This document shows, in pieces, positions 20,851 to 48,893 of a DNA stretch of 64,000 nt. The notes under the pieces are model-generated. The model was not told the origin of the DNA. It made no database searches and saw only the letters and a list, made by a program, of their open reading frames with translations. A program made the translations under genes and the position numbers. The stretch's first letter is position 1, and the number at the start of each line of letters is the position of its first letter. Location of the stretch: the NCBI RefSeq assembly GCF_022879595.1, contig NZ_CP084266.1, forward strand, positions 124,001 through 188,000, in the 5' to 3' direction. The stretch comes from Caballeronia sp. Lep1P3. GTDB taxonomy: Bacteria; Pseudomonadota; Gammaproteobacteria; Burkholderiales; Burkholderiaceae.

Positions 20851-23051
20851 GGTGTTTCGGGCTTTGGGGTGTCTGAATTGTCTTGCTGCACGGAACGCTT
20901 GCGCGCCGAGTCCACGGCGAGCAGGCGGTCGCTGAATGCATCGTCGGCGAACATTTCTTCGACCGGCAGCGCGAGACGCCGCCGCCAGTTCGGATGCTCG
21001 TCGATGGAACCGGGCAGGTTCGGCTGCTCCACGAGGCCGAGCAGGTCTTCGAGCGGATACGTGACGAGCGGCGCGGGCGTCATGCCGACGAATGCGAGCG
21101 CTTCATCGATGGGCGCGTTGTCGATAGGCGGCGCCTCGACGTCTTTCGGCGCGATGCCCGCTTCCTGAAACGCGCGCCACAAATGCCCGCGATCCACGCC
21201 GCGCTCTTCCATCGCCGCTTCGACCGGATCGCGTCCGTCTTCGCGCGCCATCGTCTGGCCGATCTTCGAGCGCCATTCGATGTCTTCCCCGCGCCACCAT
21301 CCGTTGACGGTGGGCAGGTCGTGCGTCGTCGTCGTCGCGGTTACGCCGTCGCTCCATTCGCCCGGCGGCTTGAATCCTTCGCCATCCTGAGCACGTTCGA
21401 ACCATAGCACCCGAATACCTAGCAAACCCTGCTCCTGCAAACGCTCGCTGAAGCCGGGCGGCACGGTGCCGAGATCCTCGCCAACGACGATCGCGCGATG
21501 CCGCCACGATTCCAGCGCGATGAGCCGCAACAGGTCCTCGAACGGATAGCGCAGATACGCGCCGTCCTTCGCGCTTTCGCCTTCGGGCACGAGCCACAGC
21601 CGCCGCAAGCCGAGAATGTGATCGATGCGGATGCCGCCCGCCTGCGCGAACGCGGCGCGCAACATGTCGATGAACGCGGCGAAGCCCTGCATGCGCATCG
21701 CGCGCGGCGAGAACGTCGTGAGGCCCCACGATTGCCCGGCCTGATTGAAGAGATCGGGCGGCGCGCCGACGGACACGCCCGTCAGCATGTCGTCGCGATA
21801 CGACCATGCGTGACTGCCCGCGCTGTCGCAGCCGACCGCGAGATCCGCGACGAGGCCGACGGCCATGCCCGCATCGCGCGCGGCGTGCTGCGCGTGCATG
21901 AGTCCCTTGGCCGCGAGCCATTGCGTGAAGAGATGAAAGTCCACCTCGCGCCGATGCGCCTCGGCGAACGCGGCCACGGCTTCGCTGCGCGGATCGCGCA
22001 GGTCTTCGGGCCAGTTGCGCCAGTGACCTTCGCCGTTTTGCGCGAGTTGTTCCGCCTGCAGCGCTTCGAAGCGCGCGTGGTCTTCGAGCGCGCGTCCGCC
22101 TTCCTTCACGAACGCGGCGAAGTCCTTCGCGAACGGGGAATCGTCGTCTTGCGAGAAGCCGTCGAAGAGCGCGCGCAGCACGGCGATGCGCGCTTTCATC
22201 GCGCGCGGCCAGTCGATCAGCGAGAGGCGCTCGAGTTCGGTCAACTCATCGGCGACGCCCGCCTTCTCGATCGCCGCGCGCGCGGCCGGCGCGCCGAGCA
22301 CGGCCGCCGGGTCGATATGCGCGATGTTGAGAAAGAGCCGCGACGAAGGCGAGTACGGACTGCACTTGTTCGGCTCGGCGGTGAACATCGCGTGCATCGG
22401 GCTGATGGCGAGCGCATGGCTGCCGCGCTTCGCGGCCTGCGTCGCAAGCGCGGCGAGCGCGGTGAAGTCGCCCACGCCGCCGTCGCCGTTGCGCCGCACG
22501 CCATAGACTTGCGCGGCGACGCCCCAGAGCGGCGGCGCTTTCTGCGCATCGGCGTCCTGGCCGAGGGCGCGCCACGCATCGTCGACCGTATAGCAGCGCG
22601 CGGGCGCGACCGCGAGCGTCGTGCGATGGTCGTTGATGACGAGCGTGTGATAGCCCGGCTCGGCAATCGGCGCGAGCAGGGCGGTCTCGCCCTTGGGCGA
22701 CGTAAAGCGCCCGTCGATGACCTCGCCGCTTTCCATTTCGATGCGATAGCGCGCGCCCGACTTCGCCGCCGACACCGGCAGCGCGATGCCGCGATCCACC
22801 TCTGCCGTGATGAGCGGCGGCAGCTTTCGGCCACTCATTTCGGCATCGATGGCGGACATGCTCTGCTTGATCTGCGCGGCGTTGCCGCACGGCAGGCCGA
22901 GCTTTTCGAGCAGCACGCGCAGGGTTTTTTCCGGCACGCGCTGCGTGCTCTTGTGCGCGTCCTGCCACTCGACTTCGAAGCCCGCGCGTTGCGCGAGCGT
23001 TTCGATGGTCGAGCGCGGACGCGCTTCGTTTGCGGTGTTCGCGGCGCTCAC
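20847..23051 (-). CDS. malQ: 4-alpha-glucanotransferase (amylomaltase)
   Basis: GH77 enzyme of 734 residues that transfers alpha-1,4-glucan chains between malto-oligosaccharides and releases glucose. Catalytic motifs: IRIDHILGLRR (nucleophile Asp about 477), VVGEDLGTVP (acid/base Glu about 523) and TTTHDLPTVNGWW (transition-state Asp about 577). The N-terminal 150 residues form the beta-rich extension typical of proteobacterial MalQ. I chose a GTG start at 23051 that overlaps the treZ stop by four bases (GTGA); the longer frame would run through treZ. At its own end the stop overlaps the treY ATG, so treZ-malQ-treY are translationally coupled. Confidence 0.96.
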   Translation of the reverse strand: MSAANTANEARPRSTIETLAQRAGFEVEWQDAHKSTQRVPEKTLRVLLEKLGLPCGNAAQIKQSMSAIDAEMSGRKLPPLITAEVDRGIALPVSAAKSGARYRIEMESGEVIDGRFTSPKGETALLAPIAEPGYHTLVINDHRTTLAVAPARCYTVDDAWRALGQDADAQKAPPLWGVAAQVYGVRRNGDGGVGDFTALAALATQAAKRGSHALAISPMHAMFTAEPNKCSPYSPSSRLFLNIAHIDPAAVLGAPAARAAIEKAGVADELTELERLSLIDWPRAMKARIAVLRALFDGFSQDDDSPFAKDFAAFVKEGGRALEDHARFEALQAEQLAQNGEGHWRNWPEDLRDPRSEAVAAFAEAHRREVDFHLFTQWLAAKGLMHAQHAARDAGMAVGLVADLAVGCDSAGSHAWSYRDDMLTGVSVGAPPDLFNQAGQSWGLTTFSPRAMRMQGFAAFIDMLRAAFAQAGGIRIDHILGLRRLWLVPEGESAKDGAYLRYPFEDLLRLIALESWRHRAIVVGEDLGTVPPGFSERLQEQGLLGIRVLWFERAQDGEGFKPPGEWSDGVTATTTTHDLPTVNGWWRGEDIEWRSKIGQTMAREDGRDPVEAAMEERGVDRGHLWRAFQEAGIAPKDVEAPPIDNAPIDEALAFVGMTPAPLVTYPLEDLLGLVEQPNLPGSIDEHPNWRRRLALPVEEMFADDAFSDRLLAVDSARKRSVQQDNSDTPKPETP

Positions 23052-24943
23052 GTGCGTTGTCCCTCGGTCGGTTCCAGCCGGCGCGCGTCGTGCGCACTCG
23101 CGTATTCGTTCACGTCGCCGGTGAGCCAGGCGACGAACGTTCGGCCGCTCAGTTCGCCCTCGCTCGCGCGATCCTGCGCACGCGGCGGCGTCTCGAAGAT
23201 GACCTTGCCCTGCGGTGCATCCGAGAGCGCGACGGGCGCATCGGCGAGATTGAGTGCGATAGAGAGCGTCTCGCCGTCGCCGAGCTTCCAGCGCGCGACG
23301 AGCGCTTTTTCGCCGATCACGTTCGCCCCAAGCGATTTCGCGCCCTTCAGACGCGGCGTGATGAGCTTCGCGCGCACCGTCAGCGCCGAACGATAGAAGT
23401 GCAGCCATTCGAGACGATCGAGTTCGTCTTCTTTGTTCGCCACATTGGGCGACGACATCTCGAACGTGCGCTTGTCGTTCGGATCGGGAATCTGCGCGCG
23501 GCGCTTTTCATCGGTGAATGCGGAGAACTTCGCAAATTCCTTGCGGCGGCCTTCGCGAACGGCATCGGCGAGTTCGTCGTGATAGTCGGTGAAGAAGAGG
23601 AACGGCTGCTTCGAGCCGTACTGCTCTTCCATGAAAAGCATCGGGATTTGCGGCGAAATCAGCAGCAGGCCGGTGGCGGCATGAAGCGAATCATCATCGG
23701 TGAGCGAGCGCAGGCGTTCGCCCATCGCGCGATTGCCGACTTGATCGTGGTTCTGCAGAAACATCACGAAAGCCGTGGGCGGCAGATGTCCGCTCGGCTC
23801 GCCGCGCGGCGCGCCATCGTGAATGGGCGATGGATCGCCCTGATACACGAAGCCTTCGGCAAGCACGCGCGCGAGCTTTTCGATGGGCTTGTCCGAATAC
23901 GCCTCGTAGTAGCTCTCGCTCTCGCCGGTCAGCAGCACGTGCAGCGTGTTGTGGGCGTCGTCGCTCCATTGCGCGTCGAAGTGCTTTTCCAGCAGGCTCG
24001 CGGTGTTGTGCTCGTTCTCCAGCACGAGATGCACATGCCGCTCGGCTTCGACGGAACTGCGCACGCGATCCGCGAGTTCGCGCAGCCATTCGTCGTCGTT
24101 GATCGCGTGCACTGCATCGAGGCGCAGGCCATCGAAGCGATATTCGTTGAGCCAGTAGAGCGCGTTGTCGAAGAAGAAGTCGCGCACTTGCGGCCGTTCG
24201 AAATCGATCGCAGGACCCCACGGCGTGTTCACGCCTTCGCGGAAGAACGTCTTCGCATACGCATGCAGATAGTTGCCGTCCGGCCCGAAGTGGTTATAGA
24301 CGACATCGAGAAACACCATAAGGCCCAAACCATGCGCGGTGTCGATGAGCTGCTTGAGTTCTTCGGGGCGGCCATAGGCCGAATCGGGCGCATAGGGCAG
24401 CACGCCGTCATAGCCCCAGTTGCGCGTGCCGGAGAAGTCGTTGAGCGGCATCAGTTCGATGGCCGTCACGCCGAGCTGCGCGAGTTCCGGCAGACGCGCG
24501 GTGACGCCCGCATAACCGCCCATCGCGCCGACGTGCAGTTCATAAAGCACGGTCTCTTCCCACGGCCGGCCATGCCAGTTCGTGTTCGTCCAGCGATACG
24601 CGCGCGGATCGACGACTTCGCTCGGGCCATGCACGTCCTGCGGCTGAAAGCGCGATGCGGGATCGGGTACGGCGAGGTCATCGTCGAAACGATAGCGATA
24701 CAGCGTGCCCGCGCCTGCGTCGGCTTCGGCTTCGTACCAGCCGTCGCCGGTTGCCTGCATGTCGACGAGTTCGGGCGTCGTGCTGCCGGCTCGCTGAATC
24801 TCCACTTGAACGCGGTCGCGCGACGGCGCCCAAAAACGAAAGCGCGTGCGCGGATTCTCGCGTTCGGCGCCGGTCAGATGCGCGCCGAAAGGAAGGCAAT
24901 GCGCGTGTTGATGCTGGTGAGGATCGATCGGACGTTCGGACAT
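23048..24943 (-). CDS. treZ: Malto-oligosyltrehalose trehalohydrolase
   Basis: GH13 enzyme of 631 residues that releases trehalose from maltooligosyl-trehalose made by TreY. An N-terminal beta-sandwich (RFRFWAPSRDRVQVEI) precedes the barrel. Catalytic motifs are GLRLDAVHAI (Asp about 274), LVLENEHNT (Glu about 311) and FLQNHDQVGNRAMG (Asp about 399). It sits 96 bases downstream of glgX and overlaps malQ by four bases. Together with TreY it forms the glycogen-to-trehalose branch of the cluster. Confidence 0.97.
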   Translation of the reverse strand: MSERPIDPHQHQHAHCLPFGAHLTGAERENPRTRFRFWAPSRDRVQVEIQRAGSTTPELVDMQATGDGWYEAEADAGAGTLYRYRFDDDLAVPDPASRFQPQDVHGPSEVVDPRAYRWTNTNWHGRPWEETVLYELHVGAMGGYAGVTARLPELAQLGVTAIELMPLNDFSGTRNWGYDGVLPYAPDSAYGRPEELKQLIDTAHGLGLMVFLDVVYNHFGPDGNYLHAYAKTFFREGVNTPWGPAIDFERPQVRDFFFDNALYWLNEYRFDGLRLDAVHAINDDEWLRELADRVRSSVEAERHVHLVLENEHNTASLLEKHFDAQWSDDAHNTLHVLLTGESESYYEAYSDKPIEKLARVLAEGFVYQGDPSPIHDGAPRGEPSGHLPPTAFVMFLQNHDQVGNRAMGERLRSLTDDDSLHAATGLLLISPQIPMLFMEEQYGSKQPFLFFTDYHDELADAVREGRRKEFAKFSAFTDEKRRAQIPDPNDKRTFEMSSPNVANKEDELDRLEWLHFYRSALTVRAKLITPRLKGAKSLGANVIGEKALVARWKLGDGETLSIALNLADAPVALSDAPQGKVIFETPPRAQDRASEGELSGRTFVAWLTGDVNEYASAHDARRLEPTEGQRT

Positions 24944-25039: not shown

Positions 25040-27286
<2,247 letters not shown>

Positions 27287-27372
27287 TTTTGGCCTTTTTT
27301 GGGGTTTGTGAGGTGCTTTTTGTTCGCGGGCGCGGGGCGGTTCTTCGGGTTCTCTTCTGTGCTTAATTTTCG

Positions 27373-28012
27373 TGTCGGTCTATTTGCGTTGCCCCTGTGC
27401 GGGGCGGCAGTCACTTTCTTTGCTTGGGACCAGAGTAAGGCGCTAAAGCGCCAACTCTGGTCGACACAAAGAAAGTAACCAAAGAAAGCAGCTTCTGAGC
27501 CCGCAGCACTTAATGCGTGGGCAGCTTGCGGAAAGAGCATTGGCACTCGGTAAATAAACAGCCTTGAATGACCTTCCACGCCCGCTGAGCGCCAGGTCCT
27601 GCGAGCCCCTTGGCTCGATAACACCACATCCGCGTTTTGCGCTTGCGTCTGCGGTCCAGTCGTTAGTCGGCGGCGGGCGTCAATGAGTTTTGCGAGCGCC
27701 GGCGCATCAGCGTCGTTGAACCGCAAACACGTACAGGCGCACATACGCTTGCAAACGATGGTGTTAACGAGCCAAGGGGCTCGCAGGATGTGGCGCTCAG
27801 CGGGCGCGGAAGGTGATTCAAGGCTGTTTATAAGCTGAGTGCCAATGCTCTTTCCGCAAGCTGCCCACACATTAAGTGCTGTGGGCTAGAAAGCTGCTTT
27901 CTTTGGTTACATTCTTTGTGTCGACCAGAGTTGGCGCTTTAGCGCCTTACTCTGGTCCCAAGCAAAGAAAGTGACCCCCGCCCCGGGGAGGGGCAACGCT
28001 AATAGACCGACA
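27373..28012. repeat. 640-bp interspersed element with 254-bp inverted-repeat arms and a 132-bp centre
   Basis: The left arm (27373-27626) and right arm (27759-28012) are near-perfect reverse complements of equal length. Inside each arm is a smaller palindrome, GACCAGAGT...ACTCTGGTC around GGCGCTAAAGCGCC. Outer ends read TGTCGGTCTATTTGCGTT, the motif also found at 17813. There is no transposase frame; the open frames crossing it (peptides such as KKVTAAPHRGNANRP) are spurious translations that I recognise as recurring in Burkholderia-group annotations. It fills most of the 840-base glgX-glgB gap. A transcript would fold into a very long hairpin, which could cut read-through from glgB to glgX. 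Confidence 0.9.
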
Positions 28013-28031
28013 CGAGTTGCAACAACCCACT

Positions 28032-28126: not shown

Positions 28127-30347
<2,221 letters not shown>

Positions 30348-30367
<20 letters not shown>

Positions 30368-33300
30368 CCGGATTGTCCTTGGTTGCTCCGAATACGGGTC
30401 GCGTGCCGGGCGCGGGCGGCTCGCCCGTCTCGCCGAGCAGACGGCTCGCGAGCGACGCGAGGCCCCGCAGCGGAAGACCGATCCACGTCGGCCGGTTCGC
30501 CGCTTCGTAGCGGATTTCGTAGGCGGCCTTTTCGATCAGGAAGAGATCGAGCAGGGCGGAGAACGCGCTCTCGGCGGCGATCGGTTCGGGCGACGACGCG
30601 ATCGCATCCCGGTATTGCCGCATGAAGCTCTCCTCGCCGACGGCGCGCATGCGCTCGAAAAGCGCACGCTTGCGGTCGGCCACCTGCGCGGGCGCGCTCT
30701 CGGTCGTCGGTTGCGCCGCCGCGCTCGCATACGAGAGCGAGCGCAGAAGCCCCGCTACATCGCGCAGCGGACTCGTCTTTCTGCGGCGCTCTTCCAGCGT
30801 GCGCGCGGGTTCGCCTTCGAAGTCGATCAGATATGCATCGCCTTGCGCCATCAGCACCTGACCCAGATGGAAGTCGCCGTGGATGCGGATGCAAAGCGCA
30901 TCGGAGTCGGCGGTAACGAGCTTCTTCACCGCATCGACGAGCCTGTCGCGGCGATCCAGCAGACTCTGCGCGAGGAAGCGGTCATGTTCGTTGAAGCCGC
31001 CGATCTTCTGCGCGAGGATGTCGAGCGCGCTCGTAAGCAGTTGCACCGTGCCGTCGATCCAGCCCTTGACGTCCTTCGCGGTGGCGCGGCGCGGCGCGAA
31101 CGCTTCGTCGTCCGTCGGCGTGGCGAGCGCGACGTGCAATTCGCCAAGCCGCTTGCCGATGATGCCGATGATGTTCGCATAGCCTTCGAAGCTGCCTGCC
31201 TGCGCGGTCTGATCGGGCTTCGTCTCATCGGTTTCGCCGGTGACCGCGAGTTCATCGACGACGCGGCGCAGATAATCGAGCGCGTAATTCCAGGCATCGC
31301 CCTGATTGTCGACGAAGCCTTGCAGAATCACGAGCGTATGCGGCACGTCCTGCGGATCGACGCGCACCACTTCGCCATAGAGCGGGCCGGTGTTCGCATA
31401 GCCGAGCTTCGTGAGATAGCGGCTCATCTCCGCTTCCGGATGAATGCCGCCGACCACGCGGCGCACGAGCTTCAGCACGATCTTGTCGCCGATCACGAGC
31501 GAGCTGTTGCTCTGCTCGGCCGCGAGCCAGCGAATTTCAGGCGGCGAGGCCGGGTTGAGATCGAGCGTATCGAAGCGTTCGGTCGGGAGGAAGCGGATCT
31601 CGCTCTTCTGCACGGTCGTGACGACGGCGCGCTGCTTGAGCTTGATCAGGATGCCGTAGGTGAACTGCGGCACCGCGAACGCATCGGTGATATGGCCGAT
31701 CGTGCGGCCGCGCCGCACGCGCGCGAGTGCGAGCTGCATATAGAGCGGCGACGTGGTTTCCGTGCCCCAGGCAATCGACAGCGGCAGCACGTAGCGTTCG
31801 GTGTGATCGCCGACATCCGCTTCGATTTCCGTGAACGCGAAGCCCGCGCCTTCTATCGTCGTGAGCGCGGCAAGGCGCACCGCATGCAGCTTCTGATCCT
31901 TCGATGCGAACCACCGGCGCTTGCTCAGATAGCTCGGCAACACCTCGGATTCGAGCAGACGCACGTTCTCAGGCGTCGGACCCGTCTGCCCTGCGCGAAT
32001 CACCATGGTGACGAACTCCGGTAATTGCTCCGACGGCGCTTGCGACCATGCGGGGCGCATGTTGCCGGGGCATAGCTGGAACCACAAGAAACCGTAAGGC
32101 GGGAAGGTCAGCAGATACGTCAACTGGCCGATGGCGGGGAACGGTTGATCCGCGGTCATTTCGAGCGGCACGGAGCCGGCGAATTCCGACAGGTCGAGTT
32201 CCACCGCTTGCGGCGCGCGCGAAAGATTGGCGACGCAGAGAATCGGCGGCTCGCCATCGAGTTCGCGCAGATACGCGAGGATCTTCCGATTGCTCGGCTT
32301 CAGAAAGCGAATCTTGCCGCGCCCGAACGCATGCTTCGAGCGGCGCACCGCGAGCATCTTACGCGTCCAGTTCAGAAGCGAATGCGGATCGCGGCTTTGC
32401 GCTTCGACGTTGATTGCGTCGTAGCCGTAGAGCGAACCCATGACGGGCGGCAGCACGAGTTGTTCCGGATCGGCGCGCGAGAAGCCGCCGTTGCGGTCGG
32501 ACGACCATTGCATCGGCGTGCGCACGCCGTCGCGGTCGCCGAGATGGATGTTGTCGCCCATGCCGAGTTCGTCGCCGTAATAGATGACGGGCGTGCCCGG
32601 CATCGACAGGAGCAGCGAATTAATGAGTTCGATGCGCCGGCGGTCGCGCTCCATGAGCGGCGCGAGACGCCGGCGAATGCCGAGATTCAGGCGCGCGCGG
32701 CGATCGCTCGCATACGTGTTCCACAGGTAGTCGCGCTCGGAATCCGTGACCATTTCGAGCGTGAGTTCATCGTGATTGCGCAGAAAGATCGCCCATTGAT
32801 TCGTCGCGCCGAGTTCGGGCGTCTGCCGCATGATGTCCGTGATCGGGAAGCGGTCTTCGCTCGCAATCGACATATAGATGCGCGGCATCAGCGGGAAGTG
32901 GAACGCCATGTGGCATTCGTCTTCGTCGCCGAAGTATTCCTTCACGTCTTCCGGCCACTGGTTCGCTTCGGCGAGCAGCATGCGGTTCGGATATTCGGCG
33001 TCGATGGTCGCGCGAATCTGCTTGAGAATGGCGTGCGTCTCGGGCAGGTTCTCGTTGTTCGTGCCTTCGCGTTCGACGAGATACGGCACCGCATCCAGCC
33101 GCAGGCCGTCGATGCCCATGTCGAGCCAGAAGCGCATGATCTGCAGCACTTCCTTCATCACGGCGGGATTGTCGAAGTTCAAATCCGGCTGATGCGAATA
33201 GAAGCGATGCCAGTAATACTGGCCCGCGACCGGATCGTGCGTCCAGTTCGACGGCTCCGTGTCGATGAAGATGATGCGCGTCTCTTCGTACTTCTTGTCC

Positions 33301-33740
33301 GTATCCGACCACACGTAGAAGTTGCGATGATTCGATCCCGGCTTCGCGCGCCGCGCTCGCTGAAACCACGGATGCTGGTCCGACGTGTGATTGATGACGA
33401 GTTCCGTGATGACGCGAATGCCGCGCGCATGCGCTTCCTGAATGAAGCGCTTCACATCGGCGAGGGTGCCGTAGTCCGGATGCACGTTGCGATAGTCGGC
33501 GATGTCATACCCATCGTCGCGGCGCGGCGAGGGATAGAACGGCAGCAGCCAGATGGCGTCGACGCCCAGTTCCGCGATGTAATCGAGCTTCGCGAGCAGG
33601 CCCGCGAAGTCGCCGATGCCGTCGTTGTTCGAATCGAAGAACGACTTGATGTGAACCTGATAAATGATCGCGTCTTTGTACCAGAGCGGATCGTCGCTGA
33701 GTATCGACGTCTTCTTGTTGCGCTTCACCCTTGTATCCAC
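30348..33740 (-). CDS. treS: Trehalose synthase fused to maltokinase
   Basis: A 1130-residue two-enzyme fusion. Residues about 15-560 are GH13 trehalose synthase, which interconverts trehalose and maltose: [10 protein letters not shown] (Asp about 213), [11 protein letters not shown] (Glu about 255) and [13 protein letters not shown] (Asp about 320). The C-terminal part is a maltokinase of the aminoglycoside-phosphotransferase fold, with [13 protein letters not shown] (catalytic Asp about 953) and YLIDFEGEP (metal site about 973), which makes maltose-1-phosphate for GlgE. The GTG start at 33740 has GGAG six bases upstream and lies 65 bases past the glgE stop; the longer open frame invades glgE. 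The fusion should pass maltose between active sites. Confidence 0.96.
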
Positions 33741-33805
33741 GGTTTGCTCCAATGCTTTTGTAGGCGTTCGCTTGTCTGCTCGTTCCGCTCTCGCAATTAA
33801 CGTTC

Positions 33806-36800
33806 TCAGTCGGACTGTGGCTGCGGCTTGGGCTTCGGCAAACCCCACGTGGGCGAGATGCGCCAGATCGCGAACGGCAGCGAATGCGGATTGAGCCGCA
33901 CATGCTGGCGGCGTCCGCGCCACTCGAAACGCTCGCCGGTCATCTGGTCCTCGACCGCCACCGCATCCCATTCCTTCACGCCCCAGCGTTCGAGCGTCTG
34001 CCACGGCAACTCGATATCCGCGCCCTGCTCGTTGAACGGATCGAGATTGATCGCGACGAGCACGACGTTGTCGCCCGATGCATTCGCCTTCTCGAAGAAG
34101 AGAATGTGATCGTTATGCGCGGGCAGGAAGTTCACGCCGAGATGCGTCTGCAACGCGGGATTCGCGCGGCGGATGCGGTTGAGCGCCGTCACTTCCGCGA
34201 CGATGTTGCCGGGCCGGTTCCAGTCCCACGCCCTCAACTGATACTTCTCGGAATCGAGATACTCCTCGCTATTGGGCAGCGCGGCGGATTCGCACAACTC
34301 GAAGCCGCTATAAACGCCCCACAGTCCCGACAAGGTCGCGGCAAGCGCCGCGCGAATCACGAAGCCGGGACGCCCCGAACTTTGCAGGAAACGCGGATTG
34401 ATGTCCGGCGTATTGACGAAGAAATTCGGCCGGAAATATTCCTTCGCGTCCGTCTGCGTCAGATCGTGCATGTATTCGAGGAAATCGCGCTTTGTCTCGC
34501 GCCACGTGAAATACGTGTACGACTGCGAGAAGCCGAGCTTCGCAAGACGATTCATCACGCGCGGACGCGTGAACGCTTCGGCTAGGAACATCACGTCGGG
34601 ATGACGCGCGCGCACGTCGCCGATGACCCATTCCCAGAACGGGAACGGCTTCGTATGCGGATTATCGACGCGGAAAATACGCACGCCCGCCGCGATCCAG
34701 TGCAGGAACACGTCGCGCAGTGCGATCCATAGATCGGGCTTCGCGTCCTTCGCATAGAAGTCCGGATTCACGATGTCCTGATACTTCTTCGGCGGATTCT
34801 CCGCATAGCGCAGCGAGCCGTCGGGACGCCACGCGAACCACGTCGGATGTTCCTTGAGCCACGGATGATCCGGCGAGCATTGCACCGCGAAGTCGAGCGC
34901 GATCTCGAGTCCGTGTTCATGCGCGGCTTCTAGCATGCGCTTGAAGTCGTCGAGATTGCCGAGTTCCGGATGAACGGCGGTATGGCCGCCTTCCTTGCCG
35001 CCGATGGCGTACGGGCTGCCGACATCGCCGGGCTGCGCCGTGAGCGAGTTGTTCTTGCCCTTGCGGTTGGCGAGGCCGATCGGGTGAATCGGCGGGAAAT
35101 ACAGTACGTCGAAGCCCATTTCGCGGATGCGCGGCATCTTGCCGATGACGTCGATGAACGTGCCGTGGCGGTTCTCGTCGTCGCTCATCGAGCGCGGGAA
35201 GATCTCGTACCAGCTTGCGAAGCGCGCGGCGGCGCGCTCCGAGTCGATGCGGTACACGACCGGATCGCGCGACAGGAACGGCCGGTGCCGCGCGGCTTCG
35301 ACCGCCTTCGCCGTCGCGGGCGCGAGCACGAGTTCGAGCTTGCGCGCGTCGTCGGCCTTCGTGAATTCCTTGATGATCTTTTCGAGCGGACCGCTGTCCG
35401 AATCCTCGACGGTCTTCACTTCCGCGAGAATCAGCGCGAAGAGATGCTTCGCTTCCTGCACTTCGAGTTCGACGCTCTGTCCGGCTTTCAGCTTCTTCTG
35501 CATGTGATCGGCGAGCGACGCGTAGTCGTCGCGCCACGCCATCACCACGAATTCGTGACGGCCCACGCGTTCGAGCGGAACGCGCGCGGTCCACAAATCG
35601 TTGCCGAGCGGAAGCACGAGCGACATCGGCGTTTCGTGCCATTCGGTTTCGTCGGCGGCGCGCCATTGCACGGCGGCGGCGATCTTGTCGTGACCTTCCG
35701 CGAAGATCGCCGCCTGAATCTCGACCGCCTCGCCGACGATGCGCTTGGCCGGAAAGCGTCCGTGATCGACCGAAGGCGTGACGCTCTCGATCGACACGCG
35801 CGGCGCGTCGATCGCGGCCGTCACCGATTTCTTGTCGGCGGTTTTCGCGCCGCGTTTGACTTGCGGCTGCGCGAGCAGGATGAACGGCTCCGCTTCGGCG
35901 CGAAAGAGCCGCACTTCGCCCGCGTTGAGCGAGAGCGACGCGAGGCGCTGCGGCTTGGCTTTCGCGTCGTCGATGGGCGCAAAGCGCGTGTAGTTGCCGG
36001 GCACGCCTTCGAGCAGATGCGCGGTGTCCACTTGCACCGGCGCGACGAGATCCGGATTGATGACGACCAGCACCGCCGATTCGCTATCGCGCAAGTCGCC
36101 GCCCGCCGCGCGGATCAGCGCCGCGTAAGGCGTGCCCGCGCCGGTCAGCGCGCGCAGTTCGCCCACGTCGGAGAGCGTGCCTGTGTCGCGCTGCAGGCCG
36201 TTCGCGCGTTTGATCTGCGCGCGAAGATCGATGCGCGCCTCGCTCTTCGCGCGCTTGTATTCAGCCGCGACGCCGTATTGCTGCGACATCGGCAAGCCGA
36301 CGCCGTATTCGAAGCCCATCGGCACGAGAAGGCCGGTGCCGAGCGCGGCGGCCGTATCGAGCGCGCGGCAGTAGGCGCGTTGCACGAGCGCGGTGTCGCT
36401 CGTGTCGCTCAGATCGGCGATCAGGCGCGCGCCGAACGGCTCTTCGGGAAAGGCGATCGGCGGCGCGATGCGCGAGAGCGCCGCGTGTTCGTCGACGAGC
36501 CATGCGCCCCTGAAGTCCCACCAGCGCGTCGAGGCGAAGACCGCGTCGAATTCGGCATCGGCGAGCGCGCGCAGGTCCTCGCGCGACACGCCCACGGTCC
36601 ACGCGAGCCAGCGCGTCTGCGGATGCTTCTCGCGCACCGCCGCGCCGAGCCTGCGCCACACATGCGCGGGCACCGCGTGCGGCGAATCGAAGCGAAAGCC
36701 GCCGATGCCCGCATCCGCGATCGACGCAAGTTCGCGCGCCCACCATTGCGTCAACTGATGCGCGGCTTCGCCATCGGCGAAATTGGCGATGGCGACGTCG

Positions 36801-37207
36801 CGCTGACGCGGCGGCCGGCGCGGATCGAGCCGCGCGTCGGCGGTTTCGAACGGCTGGAACCAGTGTGCGTTGTCCTGATACAGCCCGCCTTCGGCGCTCA
36901 CGCGGTCGATCACGATATCGACGAGCAGCGTGATGCCGTGCTTTTTCGCGGCATCGGCGAGCTGGCGCAGGCCGTCGGCGGCGCTCGCGTCGCATTCGAA
37001 AACCGGGTGCAGGCGATGATGATCGGCGACGGCCTCGCGATGCCCGTTACTGCCGGGCACGAACGGCGAGCCGATCAGGACGTGGTCGAAGCCGAGAGAG
37101 GCCGCGTGCTCGAACTGGGCCGGCCACTCGGAGAGCGGGCCGACGAGAAGGGGATCGATGAAGTAGATACGGGGCGCATACGCATGATGAGCTTGATGGT
37201 TTTCCAT
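33806..37207 (-). CDS. glgE: Alpha-1,4-glucan:maltose-1-phosphate maltosyltransferase with extra N-terminal GH13-like domain
   Basis: A 1133-residue protein. The C-terminal 650 or so residues are GlgE, which elongates alpha-1,4-glucan with maltose from maltose-1-phosphate: EIFPRSMSDDENRHGTF and KGKNNS near its start, RIFRVDNPHTKP (nucleophile Asp about 846), LAEAFTRPRVM (acid/base Glu about 874) and VYSGFELCE. Upstream, residues about 1-430 are a second barrel-like domain with weak GH13 signatures (LLVDIVIDRVSAEG; GFRFDSPHAVP about 172) lacking a clear catalytic Glu. Standard GlgE is about 660-700 residues, so the first part is an added domain, perhaps a glucan-binding or scaffolding relic. 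It is followed by treS after 65 bases. Confidence 0.96.
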   Translation of the reverse strand: MENHQAHHAYAPRIYFIDPLLVGPLSEWPAQFEHAASLGFDHVLIGSPFVPGSNGHREAVADHHRLHPVFECDASAADGLRQLADAAKKHGITLLVDIVIDRVSAEGGLYQDNAHWFQPFETADARLDPRRPPRQRDVAIANFADGEAAHQLTQWWARELASIADAGIGGFRFDSPHAVPAHVWRRLGAAVREKHPQTRWLAWTVGVSREDLRALADAEFDAVFASTRWWDFRGAWLVDEHAALSRIAPPIAFPEEPFGARLIADLSDTSDTALVQRAYCRALDTAAALGTGLLVPMGFEYGVGLPMSQQYGVAAEYKRAKSEARIDLRAQIKRANGLQRDTGTLSDVGELRALTGAGTPYAALIRAAGGDLRDSESAVLVVINPDLVAPVQVDTAHLLEGVPGNYTRFAPIDDAKAKPQRLASLSLNAGEVRLFRAEAEPFILLAQPQVKRGAKTADKKSVTAAIDAPRVSIESVTPSVDHGRFPAKRIVGEAVEIQAAIFAEGHDKIAAAVQWRAADETEWHETPMSLVLPLGNDLWTARVPLERVGRHEFVVMAWRDDYASLADHMQKKLKAGQSVELEVQEAKHLFALILAEVKTVEDSDSGPLEKIIKEFTKADDARKLELVLAPATAKAVEAARHRPFLSRDPVVYRIDSERAAARFASWYEIFPRSMSDDENRHGTFIDVIGKMPRIREMGFDVLYFPPIHPIGLANRKGKNNSLTAQPGDVGSPYAIGGKEGGHTAVHPELGNLDDFKRMLEAAHEHGLEIALDFAVQCSPDHPWLKEHPTWFAWRPDGSLRYAENPPKKYQDIVNPDFYAKDAKPDLWIALRDVFLHWIAAGVRIFRVDNPHTKPFPFWEWVIGDVRARHPDVMFLAEAFTRPRVMNRLAKLGFSQSYTYFTWRETKRDFLEYMHDLTQTDAKEYFRPNFFVNTPDINPRFLQSSGRPGFVIRAALAATLSGLWGVYSGFELCESAALPNSEEYLDSEKYQLRAWDWNRPGNIVAEVTALNRIRRANPALQTHLGVNFLPAHNDHILFFEKANASGDNVVLVAINLDPFNEQGADIELPWQTLERWGVKEWDAVAVEDQMTGERFEWRGRRQHVRLNPHSLPFAIWRISPTWGLPKPKPQPQSD

Positions 37208-37576
37208 CGTTCGTCTTTTCCAGAGTCGTCCTGCGGTGGCGGGGATGCGGGCAACGAATCGCGATCACGCTCACGGGTCAAACTGGCCGAAGAGCCGGTC
37301 CGCACGTTGAGGCGCGTCTCGCGCGCCGCGCGTCGCGACAATCGGAAAACGCTGCGCGCTCAAGCGACGCACGCCCCGTCGCGCGCTCGCGATGCACCGT
37401 GCACCGGGCGCCGCAGCCGCTTCGTCGCGCTTGGCCGGCGCGCCACGGTCCCGAAAGGGATTTCCTGCCGGCATTGCACGGGGGGTAAGAGCATGGAACG
37501 TGCCGCGCCCGGGTTTATGCGTCGCCTGCCGTCGATACGGCGTGCGCGCATCCGGGACGGGCACGCGCGCCGGGCC
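37208..37576. other. 369-base gap between glgA and glgE
   Basis: No gene seen; the short frames crossing it are arginine-rich shadows. It is GC-rich throughout, with no clear terminator or promoter. Both flanking genes point the same way and belong to one pathway, so read-through is likely. Confidence 0.55.
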
Positions 37577-39265
37577 TCAGGCGCTTCTCGCGACGAGCGG
37601 CTTGCCGTGCTCGTGCGCGCCGTGCCGCAGCGCGCGGGCGGCAGCGGCGGCGGTGGCGGTAGCGGCGGCGGAAACGGCATCGGCAGGAGCGGCATCGGCT
37701 GCGCGGCGGAGACGGACGGCGGCGCGGATGGGGCGCAGGCCCGTGATATCCGAATAAAGCGCGATCATCTTCGCGACAGCCTCGCCCCAGCCGAACTCGC
37801 ACGACATCGCGTTGCGCTGCATTGCGCGCCAGACGGGCGGGCGCATGTACGCGTCGATCGCGCGGCTTGCGGCCGCGATGACGTCGTCGGGCGTTTCGCC
37901 GTCGAAGAGAAAGCCGGTGGGCGCGCGCGTCCCGTCATGCACGGCGATGGGCGCGTCGTGCGTGCCGTCGCGAACGTAGAGCGTCTCGCGTGCGGCGATG
38001 TCCGCGCCATGCCCCGCATCGACGATGGTGTCGGCAAGGCCGCCCACGCGCGACGCGACGGGCAGCGTGCCGTAGCGCATTGCGTACATCTGCGTGAGGC
38101 CGCACGGCTCGAAGCGGCTGCCGTGCAGAAGAATGTCCGCGCCCGCGTGCAGCGCGTGCGCGCGCCGCTCGTCATAGCCGATATGCACGCCCACGCGATC
38201 CGGCCACGCCTGCGCGAGCTTTCTGAAGCCCTTTTCGATATACGCCTCGCCCTGGCCGATCACCGCGAGCTGGAGCCGCGGATGACGCTCCAGCAGACGC
38301 GGCAGCGCTTCGATCACCACATCCGCGAGCTTTTGGCCCGTCATGCGGCTACCGATCGCCATGAGCGGCGCGAACGGATCGGCGGGCAGGCCGAACATGC
38401 GCTGCAGGCGGCGCTTGCAGGCGTGCTTGCCGCGCATGTCGTCGAACGAATAGTTGCGCTCGATGAGCGGATCGATGGCCGGATTCCACGTATCTTCGTC
38501 GATGCCGTTCACCACCCCCGAGAGCTTGCCGGCGCAGCTTTGCAGCACGCCTTCCATCAGATGCCCGAAGCGCGGCGTGAGAATCTCGCGCGCGTAGGTT
38601 TCGCTCACGGTCGTCACGCGGTCGCTGTGAACGATGCCCGCTTTCATCAGACTCAGCGCGCCATAGAACTCGATGCTCTTCGGATCGCTCAGCGCGTGCA
38701 CCAGCCACTTCTCCGGCACGCCGAGCGACGCACCGAGAGAGAGCGCGTAGTTGCCCTGGAACGCGAGGTTGTGGATCGTGAAAACGCTCTTCGCCTGCAC
38801 GTCGGCATGCTTCATCAGAAGCGGCGTGAGGCCGCTGTGCCAGTCGTGCGCGTGAACGATGTCCGGCTTCTTCACGCCGCGCACGCCTTGCGCGATCCGC
38901 ACGGCGGCAGCCGACAGCGTCGCGAAGCGCACGGCGTTGTCCGGATAGTCGCGGCCCTGCGCGTCCTGATAGAGGCCGGTGCGCGCATAAAGCGCATCGC
39001 AGCGCAGCAGGAGAACCGGCACGCCGGTATCGGGCATGCGCGCGCGCAGGAGCGCCGCGTCGCCGCCCGGCAGGCCGCGAAGCGTGCACAACTTGCTGAT
39101 GCCTTCCGCCTGGGCAATCGCCTTCGGGTAAGCGGGCAGAAGGATGGTCGCGTCGACGCCAGCGGCGCGCAGGGCGGCGGCATAAGCGCTGACCATATCG
39201 CCGAGACCCCCGGTCTTGGCGAGCGGGACGGCCTCGGAGGCGACCAGCAGTACGTTCAAAGGCAA
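37577..39265 (-). CDS. glgA: Glycogen synthase
   Basis: A 562-residue GT5 glucosyltransferase that adds glucose from ADP-glucose to alpha-1,4-glucan. The donor-site signature KTGGLGDM lies at about 16-23, HAHDWHSGLTPLLM in the N domain, and GSRFEPCGLTQMYAMRYGTL near the C-domain active site. I chose a TTG start at 39265 with AGGAG six bases upstream, giving the usual MPLNVLLVASEAVPLAKTGG beginning; a second TTG six bases further is possible. The last 60 or so residues are an alanine-rich tail absent from the usual 480-530-residue enzyme. It is the first gene of the cluster. No ADP-glucose pyrophosphorylase gene is in the window. Confidence 0.95.
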   Translation of the reverse strand: MPLNVLLVASEAVPLAKTGGLGDMVSAYAAALRAAGVDATILLPAYPKAIAQAEGISKLCTLRGLPGGDAALLRARMPDTGVPVLLLRCDALYARTGLYQDAQGRDYPDNAVRFATLSAAAVRIAQGVRGVKKPDIVHAHDWHSGLTPLLMKHADVQAKSVFTIHNLAFQGNYALSLGASLGVPEKWLVHALSDPKSIEFYGALSLMKAGIVHSDRVTTVSETYAREILTPRFGHLMEGVLQSCAGKLSGVVNGIDEDTWNPAIDPLIERNYSFDDMRGKHACKRRLQRMFGLPADPFAPLMAIGSRMTGQKLADVVIEALPRLLERHPRLQLAVIGQGEAYIEKGFRKLAQAWPDRVGVHIGYDERRAHALHAGADILLHGSRFEPCGLTQMYAMRYGTLPVASRVGGLADTIVDAGHGADIAARETLYVRDGTHDAPIAVHDGTRAPTGFLFDGETPDDVIAAASRAIDAYMRPPVWRAMQRNAMSCEFGWGEAVAKMIALYSDITGLRPIRAAVRLRRAADAAPADAVSAAATATAAAAARALRHGAHEHGKPLVARSA

Positions 39266-39403
39266 AATGGGCTCCTGTGCGGGCTGACGCGGCGATGGCC
39301 ATGCGCCTCGCTCTTGTTGTCGACGTAACGAGGAAGAGCCGGGCCGCGCGTTTTGATGCTGATCGAGTTTGTTCTGGAAATTGCTTGCGCAGTGCAGCAA
39401 TCC

Positions 39404-39419
39404 AGCAATCTACGTGCCA
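39404..39419 (-). promoter_or_regulatory. Sigma-54 (RpoN) promoter consensus upstream of glgA
   Basis: The minus strand reads TGGCACG-TAGA-TTGCT, an exact match to the sigma-54 consensus TGGCACG-N4-TTGCW with correct -24/-12 spacing. It stands about 140 bases upstream of the glgA start in the 388-base gap behind DUF1345 (39266-39653), facing the cluster. This predicts activator-dependent transcription of the glycogen/trehalose genes. No activator site was recognised. Nothing else was identified in that gap. Confidence 0.75.
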
Positions 39420-39653
39420 CCGGTGTTTCGCGTATGTGCGGCGCCCCACGATCATTTCGGACTTATGTTCGATCGGGGTCTGATTGCGCTCACGCCGCAG
39501 CACTGAGAAGCGCACGCGCGTGCCACGTGTAAAACTGACTGCGCCGCGCGCCGCGTTTTTACAAGGCGAATCTCGAAGAGCGTATGGCCCGCATGTGACA
39601 GGCGCATTGCGCGCCGCGCCGGGGAAGGCAGGAAGCCGACGAACGTTCGGCTA

Positions 39654-40307
39654 TCAGCCGCCGACCATGCTCGCCGCGATGTTGACGGAGAGCCCGAGCA
39701 CCGCGAGATTGAAGAAGAACGACAGCACCGATTGCGCGAGCGCCGTGCGCCGCGCGCTCGTCGAGCACAGCACGACATCGGAAGTCTGGGAAGCGACCGC
39801 GATCGTGAAGGAGAAGTAAAGGAAATCCCAATAGTCGGGTTTCAGATGGCGGTCGGGAAACTTGAGCGCCGGATCGCCGGACGGCGACCGATAGTAATGC
39901 CGCGCATAGTGCAGCGTGAACATCGTCGGGATGAGGAACCACGCGCCGAGCATCGTCGCGCCGGTGAGCGCGTAGTTCGGAAACGCGTGCGCGCCGAGGC
40001 TCTTCGCCGCCGCCAGTTCGACGACGATCGCGACGAGGCTCGCGATGGCCGCGAGACTCACGATCACCAGCACGGCGGCGGCGTTCTCGTCCTCACGTTC
40101 GGCGAGCGCCTGCACGTTGCTTTGCCGCGCAGTGGCCATCTGCAGCCAGATGAGCGCGAGATACAGCCACACGGCCGCGTCCCAGCCGATCAGCGCGCGC
40201 ACCGTCGCGCGCACATGCGCCGGAACCAAAGCGGCGATGAAGAAACCAACGAGCAGGCCGATGAAGGCGCGCGGGCGCGTGCGCAGGACGGGCGGGAGAA
40301 GGTTCAT
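39654..40307 (-). CDS. DUF1345 family inner-membrane protein
   Basis: A 217-residue membrane protein with about six hydrophobic segments. It shows the DUF1345 pattern: [16 protein letters not shown] early, [20 protein letters not shown] followed by HYARHYY in the middle, and [20 protein letters not shown] (conserved acidic/aromatic motif) before the last segments. The function of the family is unknown. I chose the ATG at 40307; the longer frame adds a polar leader over the divergent promoter region. It is divergent from the sugar dehydrogenase operon. Confidence 0.88.
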
Positions 40308-40368
40308 CGTCGCGAGAGAGAGAGTCGGCGTCGCCTGGAGCGAGCGATTATCACTGACGCGGCTTACA

Positions 40369-40401
40369 TCCAGATGAGATCCACATGAGAGCCACATGAG
40401 A
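40369..40401 (+). repeat. Three tandem copies of an 11-bp repeat before the dehydrogenase operon
   Basis: TCCAGATGAGA, TCCACATGAGA and GCCACATGAGA follow each other without gap and end 7 bases before the small-subunit ATG. Each copy carries a GA-rich core resembling a weak ribosome binding site. Copy-number change would alter the leader just ahead of the start codon. Confidence 0.75.
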
Positions 40402-48566: not shown

Positions 48567-48725
48567 TCATATCCGGCCCATGAGCAATAGAACGATGACC
48601 ACGATCAGCACGACGCCGAGAATCCCGCTCGGTCCGTAACCCCAGCTGCGGCTGTGCGGCCAGGACGGAATGGCGCCGATCAACAGCAGGATCAGGATGA
48701 TCAGCAGGATGGTTCCGATCGTCAT
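48567..48725 (-). CDS. DUF3309 family small membrane protein (52 aa)
   Basis: A 52-residue protein made of two hydrophobic segments (TIGTILLIILILLLIGAI and ILGVVLIVVIVLLLMGRI) joined by a short polar loop with WPHSRSWGYGPSG. This is the DUF3309 layout seen across proteobacteria, often called stress-associated; function unknown. AAGGAG stands nine bases ahead of the ATG at 48725, so this start is preferred over the longer frame. Confidence 0.88.
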   Translation of the reverse strand: MTIGTILLIILILLLIGAIPSWPHSRSWGYGPSGILGVVLIVVIVLLLMGRI

Positions 48726-48893
48726 TTCACTTCTCCTTATAAAAGACCGCGCGACCATCCGGCTCGACGTGGCCTCCCAGGCAGCCTCGCGTCTTAGCGC
48801 AGCGGCATGGTGCCGCTGGCCGTCCGGCGTTGCGATCGACAAGGAGCGTTAAGCAAGGCCCGTGCCATTCGGCGCGAAGCCCCAAGCACAAGG

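Follow-up and report, generated by a model that had tools for sequence, protein, structure and literature searches.

What governs the expression of genes for storage glucan and trehalose in Caballeronia is the question raised by a 64,000-nucleotide stretch of the genome (hereafter the window), in which glgA, the first of eight such genes, is preceded by a -24/-12 element. The preliminary description of this DNA predicted RpoN- and activator-dependent control of the cluster from that element, and knew of no description of such control for GlgE-type clusters. The latter statement was too strong, since an rpoN mutant of Pseudomonas fluorescens shows lower expression of glgA, glgX, glgB, glgE, malQ, treZ, treY, and treS (PMC8202526), and the authors of that study cite the same RpoN effect for P. 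aeruginosa. For the family to which Caballeronia belongs, the literature yielded no account of a sigma-54 promoter at glg or glgE, supplements and most subscription papers lying beyond reach. As far as found, what is new here is thus a known type of regulation on a target not so described in this family, RpoN-dependence in Pseudomonas being already known. Here, we present the evidence that the glgA element is very probably a real sigma-54 promoter that is widespread in the family, and we discuss which activator may act on it.

The Promoter Element before glgA

The element TGGCACG-TAGA-TTGCT (TGGCACGTAGATTGCT) occupies positions 39404-39419 on the minus strand and, as first described, has no mismatch to TGGCACG-N4-TTGCW, with GG at -24, GC at -12, and the fixed spacing all present. 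The consensus itself is given as TGGCACR-N4-TTGCW (Barrios 1999, as cited in PMC4371752) or as GGCACG-N4-TTGC (PMC5979394). The first base of the element lies 160 nt upstream of the glgA TTG start at 39259. Transcription from sigma-54 promoters begins 12 nt after the C of the -12 element, which places the predicted +1 near 39393. At and after the -12 element there is an 8-bp tandem duplication (GATTGCTG-GATTGCTG, 39395-39410, minus strand), the first copy of which keeps the spacing to -24 intact; it is absent in 29 aligned relatives, whereas L056, another relative, carries its own, similar duplication.

With at most one mismatch allowed, TGGCACG-N4-TTGCW is matched four times in the window against a shuffle mean of 0.92 (none of 100 shuffles reached four), two of these matches being perfect, and four sites in the window score at least 11 of 12. 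Because the whole genome (6.18 Mb) holds five perfect matches compared to one for the pattern read backwards as a control, the perfect match by itself is enriched but modest evidence, and is not decisive. The background in the named relatives, with the true sites counted in, is 0.09 sites scoring at least 10/12 per kb and strand. The second perfect match in the window (TGGCACGGGCCTTGCT, 48852-48867, minus strand) lies 3' of a gene for a PHO4-type phosphate transporter and ahead of an open reading frame (ORF) for a small DUF3309 protein (48567-48842, minus strand). A further perfect consensus elsewhere in the genome (L161, G000 C2:506653-506668, minus strand) stands upstream of an 81-residue ORF with no Pfam match.

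Genes Downstream of the Element

That the element faces glgA and precedes eight genes on the same strand is borne out by the placement of the glgA start and by profile matches. All eight genes are on the minus strand. The glycogen synthase gene glgA (37577-39259; TTG codon 39257-39259) matches NCBIfam NF001899 with 640 bits (cut-off 459); the NCBIfam models begin at residue 48-50 of the ORF, and the same TTG or a CTG is used in this genome and in 29 relatives. It is followed by the maltosyltransferase gene glgE (33806-37207; PF11896 at residues 469-658, PF21702), a treS-maltokinase fusion (ORF limits 30348-34004; TIGR02456 937 bits, TIGR02457 589 bits), the true start of which lies further in because the ORF overlaps glgE, and the branching enzyme gene glgB (28127-30367; TIGR01515 901 bits), so that glgE, treS-maltokinase, and glgB, the set of the GlgE pathway, are present together. 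Further downstream are the debranching enzyme gene glgX (25040-27286; TIGR02100 1009 bits), treZ (23048-24943; TIGR02402 696 bits), malQ (ORF limits 20847-23408; TIGR00217 331 bits), and treY (17899-20850; TIGR02401 977 bits). The N-terminus of GlgE is extended by about 460 residues, which have no Pfam match above cut-off and over which many family members align. A weaker sigma-54-like site (CGGCACGTTCCATGCT, 37490-37505, minus strand, score 10/12) is found in the glgA-glgE gap of 369 nt.

The expectation that the promoter serves the whole cluster holds in that eight same-strand genes lie downstream, and is weakened by a long inverted repeat of 646 bp (27370-28015, no strand; 257-nt arms, 92% complementary, 132 nt apart) that separates glgB from glgX and may split the glg/tre transcript in two. 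The gap between these genes measures 840 nt, and one end of the repeat (27317-27420) matches Rfam RF02421, the candidate Burkholderia sRNA Bp1_684, with 46 bits (gathering 44). Related repeats are present at this place in six of six Caballeronia relatives checked, with gaps of 662-833 nt, and the glgB-glgX gap, as judged from alignment ends, is about 20 and 50 nt in G150 and G244.

Conservation within Caballeronia

Lack of conservation upstream of glgA in relatives had been named beforehand as a refutation of the promoter. A GlgA match was obtained in 57 of 58 Caballeronia genomes, and the upstream region was readable in 52 (genomes with a match that are left out of the count: G005, G015, G027, G045, and G050). 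The element is kept in 51 of these 52, with a varying spacer, and it recurs in other genera and before glgE-led clusters, as described below. More specifically, TGGCA[CT]-N5-TTGCT was matched in 50 of 51 loci, 109-174 nt before the glgA start, the sole miss (L057) being a reduced genome in which glgA is fragmented and the element absent; L055 is one more locus with the element (TGGCACAGCTATTGCT). In the scoring of glgA upstreams as a whole, 20 of 158 loci escaped the start-codon expression, among which L039, L055, L066, L068, L103, and L111 were then scored and L054 gave no result.

The Caballeronia alignment has to be read with its construction in mind, as its rows were picked with the element expression and the fixed columns of the element are fixed by construction. 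Its informative parts are the pass rate of 50/51, the variable spacer (TAGA, CCGA, AGCG, ACGT, CGCC, and others), and the low-information upstream flank, in which the 40 columns before the element carry 0.02-1.01 bits each, mostly below 0.5; downstream of the element the columns carry 0.08-1.66 bits and are partly conserved.

Conservation in Other Genera

The comparison was extended to genomes grouped by genus, in which g1 is Caballeronia, g20 Paraburkholderia, g24 Ralstonia, and the genome G063 Chitinasiproducens; we take g3, g10, g11, and g25 to be Cupriavidus, Pandoraea, Burkholderia, and Trinickia, respectively. Upstream of glgA, Ralstonia shows TGGCATAG[GC]TCTTGCG in 8/8 loci. A -24/-12 element is also present in 19/19 Paraburkholderia loci, and in 13 of them its distance to the start is 84-93 nt. 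In g15 the element stands at -114 in L039 and at -428 and -443 in L069 and L070, and the Chitinasiproducens loci (L068 and L103) have a score-8 element only. Among the glycogen synthase genes of Enterobacteriaceae and Alphaproteobacteria that were scored, none has an element scoring at least 10. Castellaniella, outside the family studied, has GGGCACGCGAATTGCT 55 nt before glgA (L111, score 11).

In Paraburkholderia genomes with both glgA and glgE, the two genes are on different contigs or far apart. Upstream of glgE, 60 loci (20 + 40) were hand-chosen from 148 genomes with glgE, and 47 of them have a site scoring at least 10/12, with a score of 9 in 11 more. In the first 20 loci, 14 score at least 10 near the gene, three g25 loci and L196 score 9, L194 has a distal site only, and L201 has its element 1.95 kb up. 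In the other 40 loci, 33 score at least 10 near the gene (g3 12/12, g10 5/5, g11 12/14, g20 4/4, g25 0/5) and the remaining 7 score 9; on the antisense strand of the same 40 loci, taken as a control, matches occur in 7 loci over ~70 kb. The g25 element is CGGCATGCA[AT]C[CG]TGCT, with a score of 9. Most g11 loci have a second sense-strand site scoring at least 10 about 760-870 nt up, so the near site is not singled out by score alone, and three g3 loci have an additional sense-strand site at about 1.3 kb. Outside the family the element was found in 1 of 11 glgE loci, where glgE may not lead its operon.

Loci within one genus are non-independent. Taken together, a sigma-54-type element is conserved in position and orientation across relatives, upstream of both glgA and glgE and in several genera, and it is this conservation rather than the quality of the match that decides in favor of a glgA promoter, as far as sequence comparison can tell.

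An Inverted Repeat and a Dyad Upstream of the Promoter

Upstream of the element lies the inverted repeat TGTAAAA-N22-TTTTACA (39528-39563, no strand), which is unique in the genome; even the relaxed form TGTAAA-N14..30-TTTACA has its single genomic occurrence here, upstream of glgA, and no other genomic target of the full repeat was found. Its right arm contains a 13-bp dyad of the type TGTM-N5-TACA with one mismatch (AGTCAGTTTTACA, 39528-39540, minus strand), 121 nt before -24, which is a putative activator site. In Caballeronia the repeat (GTGTAAAA-N22-TTTTACAC) begins 101-149 nt before -24, and the repeat expression matched 39 of 50 loci, the span being 38 bp in 37 of these 39 with a diverging middle; in the 11 other loci, the window included, an outer base of the repeat is changed (by eye).

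The dyad recurs in other genera, in the region where an enhancer would be expected. When 131 promoters were compared, all eight fixed positions were matched in 46 of them vs. 1 of 655 dinucleotide shuffles, and at least seven positions in 87 vs. 48 of 655, with the qualification that the motif was chosen post hoc and defined on the same sequences used to score it. At the threshold of seven, it is found in 39/50 Caballeronia promoters (with the dyad located elsewhere, about -203, in at least 6), 13/15 Paraburkholderia glgA promoters, 8/8 in g25, 16/18 in g11, and 10/14 in g3, and it is rare or absent in Paraburkholderia glgE (1/11), Ralstonia (0/8), g10 (0/5), and g16 (0/2) promoters. One half of the Caballeronia repeat recurs before glgE in g11, where 17 sites of the box TGTAAAAACGNCAG turned up in 16 of 41 genomes; ten of the 12 box loci read have a -24/-12 element and then glgE, L202 has the box and the element without glgE, and L203 has neither.

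Candidate Activators and Two rpoN Genes

The genome encodes 13 strong enhancer-binding proteins (bEBPs; PF00158) and two rpoN genes, 46% identical to each other. One rpoN neighbors genes resembling hpf and ptsN (by eye). The second (rpoN2; C1:2134727-2136211) is near otsA (TIGR02400 above cut-off) and a divergent bEBP pair, all within about 10 kb (L282, G000 C1:2126000-2145900). One protein of the pair has the arrangement receiver-AAA-Fis and the other AAA-Fis without a sensor domain; the GSFTGA loop is kept in both, and no listed profile model reaches its cut-off for either protein. In named relatives, a motif expression found no bEBP gene within 10 kb of glgA.

The pair was present in 14 of 15 genomes inspected. 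It lies 47-60 kb from the glgE start in 5/5 g11 genomes and 32-33 kb from it in 3/4 g10 genomes; G202 has just a receiver-type gene in the neighborhood of glgE (30 kb), its pair being elsewhere. A closer association is seen in g3, where the sensorless bEBP is the immediate same-strand neighbor upstream of glgE in 9 of the 26 genomes carrying it (G059, G122, G140, G156, G177, G201, G217, G232, and G237); a closer reading of 12 g3 loci confirmed five adjacencies and found no bEBP before glgE in the other seven. The linkage at 30-60 kb is weak evidence by itself, and the direct adjacency, seen in nine related genomes, carries more weight. The arrangement differs among genomes: G244 has the order glg cluster, rpoN2, and pair, in Ralstonia (G154) about 1 kb separates the pair from rpoN2, and the pair stands beside otsA in G205 and precedes glgE in G140. 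A search between the two bEBP genes for autoregulation via the same box gave a single half-box, in Ralstonia (five genomes), and this idea was rejected.

Three of 29 g3 genomes with glgE have no match to the sensorless bEBP (G227, G247, and G257); G257, which has no close homolog of the pair and is the one genome of the 15 inspected without it, nonetheless keeps the promoter. Furthermore, some g10 genomes have two such pairs (two each in G142 and G238), hence paralogs of the pair exist. Because of these paralogous pairs and the g3 genomes without the pair, we slightly lowered our estimate that the divergent pair is the activator of the glgA promoter, which we now regard as an even chance, and lowered marginally that of a dedicated module, discussed below.

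Alternative Explanations

It could be argued that the sigma-54 match arose by chance or is the remnant of a decayed site, with glgA transcribed from a promoter of the sigma-70 or another type, as the genome has five perfect matches and the window four sites scoring at least 11; the position-specific conservation across genera makes this highly improbable, and a simple scan found no sigma-70-like site in 36900-39900 (0.6 in shuffles), which is weak evidence. The upstream repeat might, in turn, be the terminator of the DUF1345 gene (39654-40397, minus strand; PF07077 192 bits) directly upstream of the promoter region, the end of which also precedes glgE in three Paraburkholderia loci (L182, L183, and L188; by eye). 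The repeat does lie between this gene and glgA and has a GC-rich middle, but no terminator was called there, RNA of the stretch folds worse than shuffles (z +1.66), the span is constant in 37/39 loci despite the diverging middle, and half of the repeat recurs before glgE in g11. Given that neither a terminator call nor a stable fold was obtained, the terminator reading was rejected, and we hold it to be improbable.

With sigma-54 dependence accepted, the activator could be a global one, for instance NtrC, which would couple glucan and trehalose to nitrogen status; the preliminary description had expected a link to nitrogen or another stress. NtrC binds the dyad GCAC-N7-GTGC, and none was seen by eye in the glgA upstream sequences compared; the conserved upstream element is, by eye, unlike this type, a GGCACG-N2-CGTGCC palindrome in one subclade's glgA upstreams has a different spacing, and the uniqueness of the full repeat suits a dedicated over a global activator. 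The genome does encode an NtrC-looking bEBP (L165, by eye), and NtrC is reported to control exopolysaccharide and motility in B. cenocepacia (PMC5491218), but the main text of that paper and of PMC5979394 contains no match to glycogen, trehalose, or glg. Lacking both a site and such a match, the nitrogen link via NtrC finds no support and was rejected; we consider it very unlikely. A different possibility is that RpoN2, not RpoN1, reads the glgA promoter as part of a dedicated module with the bEBP pair. In line with this, rpoN2 lies within 10 kb of the pair and otsA in the source genome, is separated from the pair by about 1 kb in Ralstonia G154, and in G244 has the glg cluster on one side and the pair on the other; its role in R. 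solanacearum has, in addition, been described as enigmatic (PMC4371752). The available text of the same paper, however, gives no phenotype for rpoN2 and reports that Cupriavidus has no rpoN2, yet g3, presumably Cupriavidus, keeps the promoter, and the stretches inspected around the pair in G140, G150, G205, and G212 contain no rpoN2. All in all, a reading by RpoN2 appears rather unlikely.

Proposed Mechanism and Comparison with Known Systems

We return to an RpoN promoter starting the glgA transcript with an activator at the upstream dyad, which as a whole is the best explanation and only slightly less certain than the promoter itself. A closed complex of RpoN-RNA polymerase would occupy -24/-12 and would be opened by an AAA+ enhancer-binding protein at the TGTM-N5-TACA dyad, about 120 nt further up; the dyad used would be the one inside the TGTAAAA-N22-TTTTACA repeat. 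The most likely activators are the divergent bEBPs, one with a receiver domain and one without a sensor domain, which may bind the dyad in response to an inducing signal. The transcript would start at glgA and probably continue into the glgE-treS-glgB block. Of the control originally predicted, dependence on sigma-54 is very likely in view of the conserved promoter, and a dedicated activator is plausible only.

The -24/-12 element, its spacing, and the putative activator site upstream resemble consensus sigma-54 promoters, with the difference that the available text of PMC4371752 and PMC5979394 does not name a glycogen-GlgE-trehalose operon as a target. In the list of 40 predicted sigma-54 sites of R. 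solanacearum, the part shown holds no glg gene, and "glg" is absent from the text (PMC4371752). Neither glycogen nor trehalose is matched in the main text of PMC5979394, PMC5491218, PMC5552954, PMC4676750, PMC12316311, or PMC3162934, and RpoN is not mentioned in the available text of a review (PMC11046441). In P. phymatum, nifA mutant bacteroids have lower treS (PMC8305402).

The closest likeness in gene set is to the RpoN-dependent glg/tre genes of P. fluorescens, which differ in that they form mainly two adjacent reversed operons, compared to eight genes on one strand in Caballeronia, and in that the evidence is transcriptome data, with no promoter or activator assigned in the available text (PMC8202526). 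An enhancer-binding protein acting on glgA is also seen in Pseudomonas, where the sigma-54 activator CbrB represses glgA, with an "incoherent" site placement, in P. putida (PMC6296734) and stimulates it in P. syringae (PMC8982409); CbrAB is described as exclusive to Pseudomonads. Drying and osmotic stress are linked to alpha-glucan and trehalose synthesis in Pseudomonas (PMC8084333).

The candidate activators themselves can be compared to known bEBPs acting in pairs. HrpR and HrpS are two related bEBPs that are encoded together, at least one of them without a sensor domain. The divergent pair may be analogous in that related bEBPs are encoded together and at least one is sensorless, and it differs in being divergent and having a receiver domain in one member; a mixed ring would be only a guess.

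Implications for Storage Metabolism in the Family

A more tentative reading, which we find possible though doubtful, is that of a dedicated sigma-54 storage module across the family, in which the bEBP pair would switch on the glycogen-GlgE-trehalose genes via TGTM-N5-TACA, in some lineages with its own RpoN2 and linkage to otsA, and perhaps as a mixed ring. The promoter would have survived rearrangement of the operon, which would leave glgA and glgE with a promoter each in genomes where the two genes are separate. If this were true, the rpoN2 of the family would gain a role. At the least, two candidate activators can now be named, and a concrete hypothesis can be offered for the second rpoN, called enigmatic in Ralstonia solanacearum. 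A single predicted promoter thereby becomes a testable rule for the whole family, in which alpha-glucan and trehalose synthesis appear to be under activator-gated sigma-54 control.
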